Origin: Paratractidigestivibacter faecalis
Lineage (GTDB): Bacteria > Actinomycetota > Coriobacteriia > Coriobacteriales > Atopobiaceae
DNA length: 64,000 nt
Direction: 5' to 3'
Assembly (NCBI RefSeq): GCF_003416765.1
Contig: NZ_QSNG01000001.1
Span: 956,742-1,020,741, forward strand
Positions 34,892 through 35,171 of this stretch are shown piece by piece; the first letter of the stretch is position 1, and each line of letters opens with the position of its first letter. A model generated the notes under the pieces. The model had not been told where the DNA came from. It ran no database searches and saw only the letters and a list, made by a program, of their open reading frames with translations. Position numbers and translations under genes: made by a program.

Positions 34892-34981
34892 TGAAAAAAG
34901 CCCGCACGCCGGGAGAACCCGGTGCTGGGCGATTATGTGGCGCCTGTCACGTGGCCTCGCGGCCCTTGAGGGACAGACGCC
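34892..34981 (-). promoter_or_regulatory. Attenuator-like leader of thrS
   Basis: On the minus strand, just after the leader-peptide stop, GGCGTCTGTC pairs with GACAGGCGCC (34981-34939). A terminator follows: GCCCAGCACCGGG with CCCGGCGTGCGGGC and TTTTTT (34930-34892). The layout of leader peptide, pause-type hairpin, terminator and structural gene fits transcription attenuation. Confidence 0.6.
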
Positions 34982-35025
34982 TAGATAGTCTGGGTGGTAC
35001 GGATGCCCTGGTGCGGCATAGACAT
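34981..35025 (-). CDS. Putative 14-residue thrS leader peptide
   Basis: The ORF reads MSMPHQGIRTTQTI and stops. AGGAAAGG lies 9 nt before the ATG. Three of the last five residues are Thr, with Thr-Thr-Gln-Thr-Ile immediately before the stop, as expected if stalling at Thr codons controls the downstream hairpins. It is too short for any domain, and its role is inferred from position, composition and the terminator before thrS. Confidence 0.5.
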   Translation of the reverse strand: MSMPHQGIRTTQTI

Positions 35026-35128: not shown

Positions 35129-35171
35129 CCCCGCAAATTGGGGACGTGTTCAATTTTGCGCAAATTTGAAC
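35129..35171. repeat. REP-like palindrome copy A, left part (split by IS)
   Basis: CCCCGCAAATTGGGGACG, TGTTCAATTTTGCGCAAA, TTTGAAC. Together with 36614-36632 it rebuilds a nearly perfect palindrome of about 62 bp once the IS and one AAC duplication are removed. Confidence 0.85.

Follow-up and report, generated by a model that had tools for sequence, protein, structure and literature searches.

A probable threonine-sensing, ribosome-mediated attenuator upstream of thrS in Coriobacteriia

The threonyl-tRNA synthetase gene (thrS) of Paratractidigestivibacter faecalis is preceded by a short leader rich in Thr codons, a hairpin (SL1) that starts at the leader stop codon and an intrinsic terminator, and comparison with related genomes makes this unit a likely threonine-sensing, ribosome-mediated attenuator of thrS. 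The leader, its Thr codons, the covarying SL1, the terminator, the fixed spacing and the tie to thrS are all read directly from the sequences. On this comparative evidence, the arrangement of Thr leader, SL1 and thrS is not due to chance, and it is tied to thrS in two families of the order.

Organization of the thrS leader region

The window analysed here is a stretch of 64,000 nucleotides of the P. faecalis genome, on the minus strand of which the locus is laid out as follows (window positions).

35073-35061, minus strand: conserved block TTTGTGGTAAACC 5' of the leader, possibly part of a promoter (weak), carried also by the sister species L010, with similar versions in related genomes
35041-35035, minus strand: leader SD, GGAAAGG; a GAAAGG-type SD stands 5' of the leader ATG in most relatives
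35025-34981, minus strand: leader ORF, MSMPHQGIRTTQTI-stop (UAG), 14 codons (ATG TCT ATG CCG CAC CAG GGC ATC CGT ACC ACC CAG ACT ATC TAG), from sequence and from conservation of length, start, SD and C-terminal T-x-T across two families
34998-34993, minus strand: Thr codons ACC ACC within the leader ORF
34989-34987, minus strand: Thr codon ACT within the leader ORF, codon -2, the invariant and putative sensing position
34983-34981, minus strand: leader stop UAG
34981-34939, minus strand: hairpin SL1, 5' arm GGCGUCUGUC, 3' arm GACAGGCGCC, first base the G of UAG, from covariance (model R1, 55.9 bits)
34938-34931, minus strand: SL1-terminator linker of 8 nt; 4-8 nt in 54 of 61 terminator-bearing loci
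34930-34900 (stem) and 34899-34894 (T6), minus strand: intrinsic terminator, fold of -19.3 kcal/mol followed by TTTTTT
34858-34851, minus strand: thrS SD, GGAAGAGG; relatives similar
34842-33079, minus strand: thrS, threonyl-tRNA synthetase, type A, without an N-terminal TGS domain (TIGR00418, 702 bits; Pfam SAD, core and anticodon-binding domains only)

An earlier sequence-only reading of the window had described a 14-codon ORF with a ribosome-binding site that ends Thr-Thr-Gln-Thr-Ile-stop, a hairpin starting at its stop codon and an intrinsic terminator with T6 ahead of thrS; all three were confirmed on the minus strand, the hairpin as a covarying stem and the gene downstream as thrS by its TIGR00418 match. 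The SL1-terminator stretch folds with a z of -4.3 against dinucleotide shuffles, 1 of 200 of which folds equally well, and promoter prediction called none at the thrS leader region. About 100 bp upstream of the leader, from window position 35129 to about 36600 on the plus strand, lies a transposase-bearing repeat; pieces of at least 130 bases recur at ten further places in the genome and end pieces of about 40 bases at many more. Block TTTGTGGTAAACC is retained between this repeat and the leader.

Conservation of the leader peptide and its Thr codons

Within the window, Thr accounts for 5.0% of codons in the genes, and at least three Thr in six codons has a p of about 0.002 for a single try, which leaves the window leader alone only suggestive and makes conservation decisive. 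Loci for codon counts were chosen by the SL1 hairpin alone, with the codons ignored (n = 81). Thr stands at leader codon -2 in 81/81 of these and at codon -4 in 75/81, and occupies both positions in a further seven loci upstream of a second thrS type (type B, below). The alignment of related genomes called for by the sequence-only reading thus recovers conserved Thr codons, and the outcome that would have spoken against attenuation, loss of the ORF or its Thr codons with the terminator kept, did not occur. Identity at codon -4 among 47 diverged representatives is 0.91, 0.94 and 0.47 by position, showing that the third base is free. Codons -1 and -3 are variable, and Thr is nearly absent from codon -1 (1/88). 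Relatives carry runs of up to six Thr codons, as in PTTTTTTI-stop and RTTTTVTI-stop. The choice of codon is also unusual, with ACU making up 3 of the 153 Thr codons in window genes versus 78 of 81 at leader codon -2.

Across most of the window's group and of family f10 the leader has 14 codons and an SD, its N-terminal half being variable, and in one locus (L252) the stop is shifted one codon upstream with the Thr kept. Given Thr codons conserved as codons and the kept SD and length, the leader looks translated, and the locus has the short ORF with cognate codons that characterizes leader-peptide attenuators. At codon -5, just before the Thr codons, 45 of 81 loci carry CGA, which provides 1 of the 177 Arg codons in window genes and is perhaps a slow-down site. 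A hairpin within the leader, CAGAC:GUCUG, was rejected: many sequences could form it, but L067, L156 and L182 lack it.

Structure and distribution of SL1

The stem of SL1 shows double changes in 6 of 10 pairs, with 98.3% of cells paired; these covariation values were reached by 0 of 500 shuffles, and slid versions pair at less than 50%. SL1 is an RNA structure. Its apical loops are variable.

Of 299 genomes of the order, a covariance model of SL1 alone (R1, 47 positions from UAG onward) matched 79, all belonging to family f1 or f10, and did so at one place per genome with one exception. Of 20 matches fetched, 19 lie 118-177 nt upstream of thrS; the remaining one (L239) is not before thrS and is without Thr codons. 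Searches of a class sample and a phylum sample (296 genomes of the phylum) with the same model added no family beyond f1 and f10, and many members of the same family are without the element. A close ThrRS occurs in 130 of 140 family genomes, and the named relatives include Olsenella, Thermophilibacter, Collinsella and Atopobium. The upstream core that relatives share consists of a short ORF ending (R)T-x-T-I-stop, UAG, GGCGYCUGUCC...GGACAGGCGCC, usually a terminator, and then thrS. In the genome of P. faecalis itself, no similar element was seen upstream of homoserine dehydrogenase.

T-boxes

Detection of a T-box by covariance search would equally have told against a leader-peptide attenuator. 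The T-box family (RF00230) gave no match at the window locus up to an E value of 10, Rfam returning only noise there. This negative is fair only for the permissive scan: clostridial thrS T-boxes, which served as positive controls and stand before close ThrRS homologues, reach 47-88 bits where the gathering score is 93, so that a default Rfam scan misses them and is uninformative, whereas the permissive scan detected them. Elsewhere in the same genome, three T-box hits were found (G000:C1:644758-644999, 217190-217336 and 692311-692490; L290-L292; 58, 37 and 27 bits, all under the cut-off), and the genes after them are read as ileS, pheS and ilvD. These hits point to the coexistence of T-boxes and the leader-peptide system in one genome.

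Coupling of ribosome position to transcription

When charged tRNA-Thr is scarce, the ribosome would stall at the leader Thr codons, chiefly at the rare ACU at -2, and transcription would enter thrS; with Thr-tRNA plentiful, the ribosome would reach UAG and transcription would end ahead of thrS. Three parts of this model are inferred: that the leader is translated in vivo, which way control runs, and how the ribosome is coupled to transcription. A terminator between leader and gene, as expected of a leader-peptide attenuator, is present in the window and, as a terminator-like hairpin with a T-run, in 61 of 81 loci. About 20 of the 81 have no detected terminator, which suggests that the output varies among loci; the terminator step of the model cannot apply to them, and Rho or another output must be assumed.

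The most familiar coupling step would be that of a classical trp-type attenuator, in which a stalled ribosome frees the 3' arm of SL1 to pair with the 5' arm of the terminator as an antiterminator. The order of leader, first hairpin and terminator is the classical one, and the freed 3' arm folds with the terminator 5' arm at -4 to -15 kcal/mol, which could act kinetically. However, shuffling the terminator arm gives equally good folds (mean z +0.5), and under equilibrium folding the predicted terminator probability averages 0.86-0.96 at all ribosome positions, with no ribosome-dependent loss. In genus g9, moreover, the terminator is invariant while SL1 covaries, and the geometry is shifted, in that the 3' arm would be freed by a ribosome at the stop rather than at Thr. 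An antiterminator of this kind is consequently improbable, and the mutually exclusive hairpins that the sequence-only reading had suggested looking for in related genomes did not emerge. Of its proposal of leader-peptide attenuation, the kept Thr codons, the terminator in about three quarters of loci and the lack of a T-box stand, but the classical antiterminator switch is not supported.

We tentatively put forward an alternative that is modelled on distances, which would be attenuation without an antiterminator: SL1, placed at the leader stop, would shorten the mRNA tether between ribosome and RNA polymerase, and ribosome position would be read as tether length. When Thr(-2) occupies the A site, the codon lies five nucleotides (AUCUA) from the SL1 stem, a spacer at which SL1 plausibly stays closed, judging by general ribosome geometry. 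The folded SL1 would then absorb about 44 nt of slack and hold the stalled ribosome so near RNA polymerase that the terminator hairpin could not form. Advance of the ribosome to the stop would melt SL1 and return the slack, and the terminator would fold. The distance from the P site to the end of the U-tract is 25 nt (10-90%: 23-26) with both hairpins folded versus 68 nt with SL1 open; these spacing values are partly set by the shared ancestry of the loci, and the reference distances are those of E. coli. Published values put the minimum from P site to polymerase active site at 28 nt and show the two machines as largely collided up to 37 nt (PMC11711091), and a collided ribosome-polymerase complex does not tolerate a termination hairpin (PMC7858274). 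In E. coli, an intrinsic terminator is repressed by a ribosome positioned within 27 nt (PMC4824070). Since a tether of about 25 nt falls below the 28-nt minimum and collided complexes exclude hairpins, the stalled ribosome is proposed to exclude the terminator. Tether shortening fits the fixed Thr(-2) and the rarity of Thr at -1, as well as the place where SL1 sits and the lack of an antiterminator. Two relatives (L102 and L188), in which the Thr codons and SL1 are kept and CGAG replaces UAG with loss of the leader stop, count against the attenuator explanation as a whole.

SL1 might instead be a pause hairpin that keeps RNA polymerase in place for the ribosome to catch up, termination being blocked by other means such as Rho or another factor. 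Stable hairpins in this position are typical of attenuator pause signals, and pausing would explain pairing conserved over sequence and would also suit the terminator-less loci, but on its own pausing accounts neither for a block to termination by a stalled ribosome nor for the tight linker between SL1 and terminator. We regard it as doubtful as the sole function; a pause role of SL1 may be combined with the tether or attenuator explanation. That ThrRS or another protein binds SL1, with the ORF incidental, appears very unlikely given the coding-type conservation of the leader Thr codons. E. coli thrS is autorepressed, and type-B relatives carry a loop like the tRNA-Thr anticodon near the thrS SD, but no such hairpin was seen by eye in the window leader, the SL1 apical loops vary, and the divergence of type-B SL1 stems weakens the case for sequence-specific binding. 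Terminator-less loci do require a non-terminator output, and a hairpin 5 nt 3' of a hungry rare codon resembles frameshift signals; yet an output by frameshifting or readthrough of UAG at a hungry Thr codon, or by masking of the thrS SD, is scarcely credible, as the -1, +1 and post-stop frames hardly differ in how far they stay open and the predicted SD accessibility is unchanged by ribosome position.

Relation to known attenuators

Leader-peptide attenuation of synthetase genes is known; what differs here is the sequence, the layout and the absence of a supported antiterminator. A thrL leader before thrS has been proposed in Streptomyces lividans TK24 (PMC8079986), likewise a short ORF with Thr codons directly 5' of thrS in an actinobacterium and read as a leader peptide. 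In contrast to the leaders described here, that peptide (MKRVRPFLETTPGFVPAR) has TT mid-peptide with no Thr at -2 or -4, is leaderless, and is followed by a single hairpin without a U-tract, no comparative support being given. Attenuators of leuS and trpS are known in Streptomyces (PMC1262725); the authors of that study saw no RNA structure conserved at actinobacterial threonine operons. The view that leader control of thrS would be unusual thus holds as to rarity, but not as to precedent, given the S. lividans proposal and the Streptomyces leuS and trpS systems.

The leuS and trpS attenuators and that of pheST resemble the present locus in having, ahead of the synthetase gene, a leader peptide with cognate codons followed by a first hairpin and a terminator, but their antiterminator competes with the terminator, which is unsupported at Coriobacteriia thrS. 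The LEU element of actinobacterial leuA (PMC1262725) similarly joins a cognate-codon leader peptide to a conserved RNA structure, but that structure is a terminator-less pseudoknot with a base stem formed between the leucine codons and the SD of leuA. The clostridial thrS T-box also places thrS under control of Thr-tRNA charging, by an element that the window locus lacks. Under the tether model, a parallel would be E. coli pyrBI (PMC4824070), where the ribosome itself blocks terminator folding with no antiterminator. That system, however, senses nucleotide through polymerase pausing and has its terminator inside the leader gene; in the window, about 51 nt lie between the end of the thrS leader and the terminator, a gap that the hairpin closes, and the computed distance fits pyrBI-type occlusion only with SL1 folded.

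No report of the Coriobacteriia thrS leader element was found in the literature searched, chiefly open-access main text, and an unnamed listing in the supplements of PMC8040213 is possible. With this element, thrS of a major group of gut and oral bacteria would join the genes under leader-peptide control, one Thr sensor standing before two different types of the gene. Its tight spacing, together with the lack of an antiterminator, makes experimentally approachable the question of whether ribosome proximity alone can run an amino-acid attenuator.

Type-B thrS and genus g9

The type-B ThrRS is about 47% identical to the window's type and belongs to the same family, with a longer, TGS-like N-terminal part. 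Upstream of type-B thrS (L256, L257, L259-L263), the leader has the same Thr ending, and the SL1 stems differ but still pair. Retention of the leader before type B suggests, at the level of sequence, either replacement of thrS behind the leader or transfer of the leader. A hairpin, CGGCC-AU(C/U)GU(G/A)A-GGCCG, lies directly 5' of the type-B thrS SD (L256-L263 and L285; G012, G013, G015, G017, G019, G023, G029 and G030). Its 7-nt loop, with U33 and an anticodon CGU or UGU plus a purine, is like the tRNA-Thr anticodon loop and recalls the E. coli thrS operator; other matches to this pattern in the class are not 5' of thrS.

In genus g9 the leader has eight codons, M(N/S)RRTQT(F/S)-stop, and a -10-like box stands about 7 nt 5' of the ATG, so near that the g9 leader is probably leaderless, which would leave no upstream RNA available to take part. 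In the g9 loci L257, L260, L262 and L263, the SL1 5' arm can also pair with a stretch about 85 nt downstream, past the terminator, which the pairing encloses. This alternative pairing covaries (GGCGUGCGCUGG/CCAGCGCGCGCC and GGCACCCGUCGG/CCGACGGGCGCU) and is possible in read-through RNA only.
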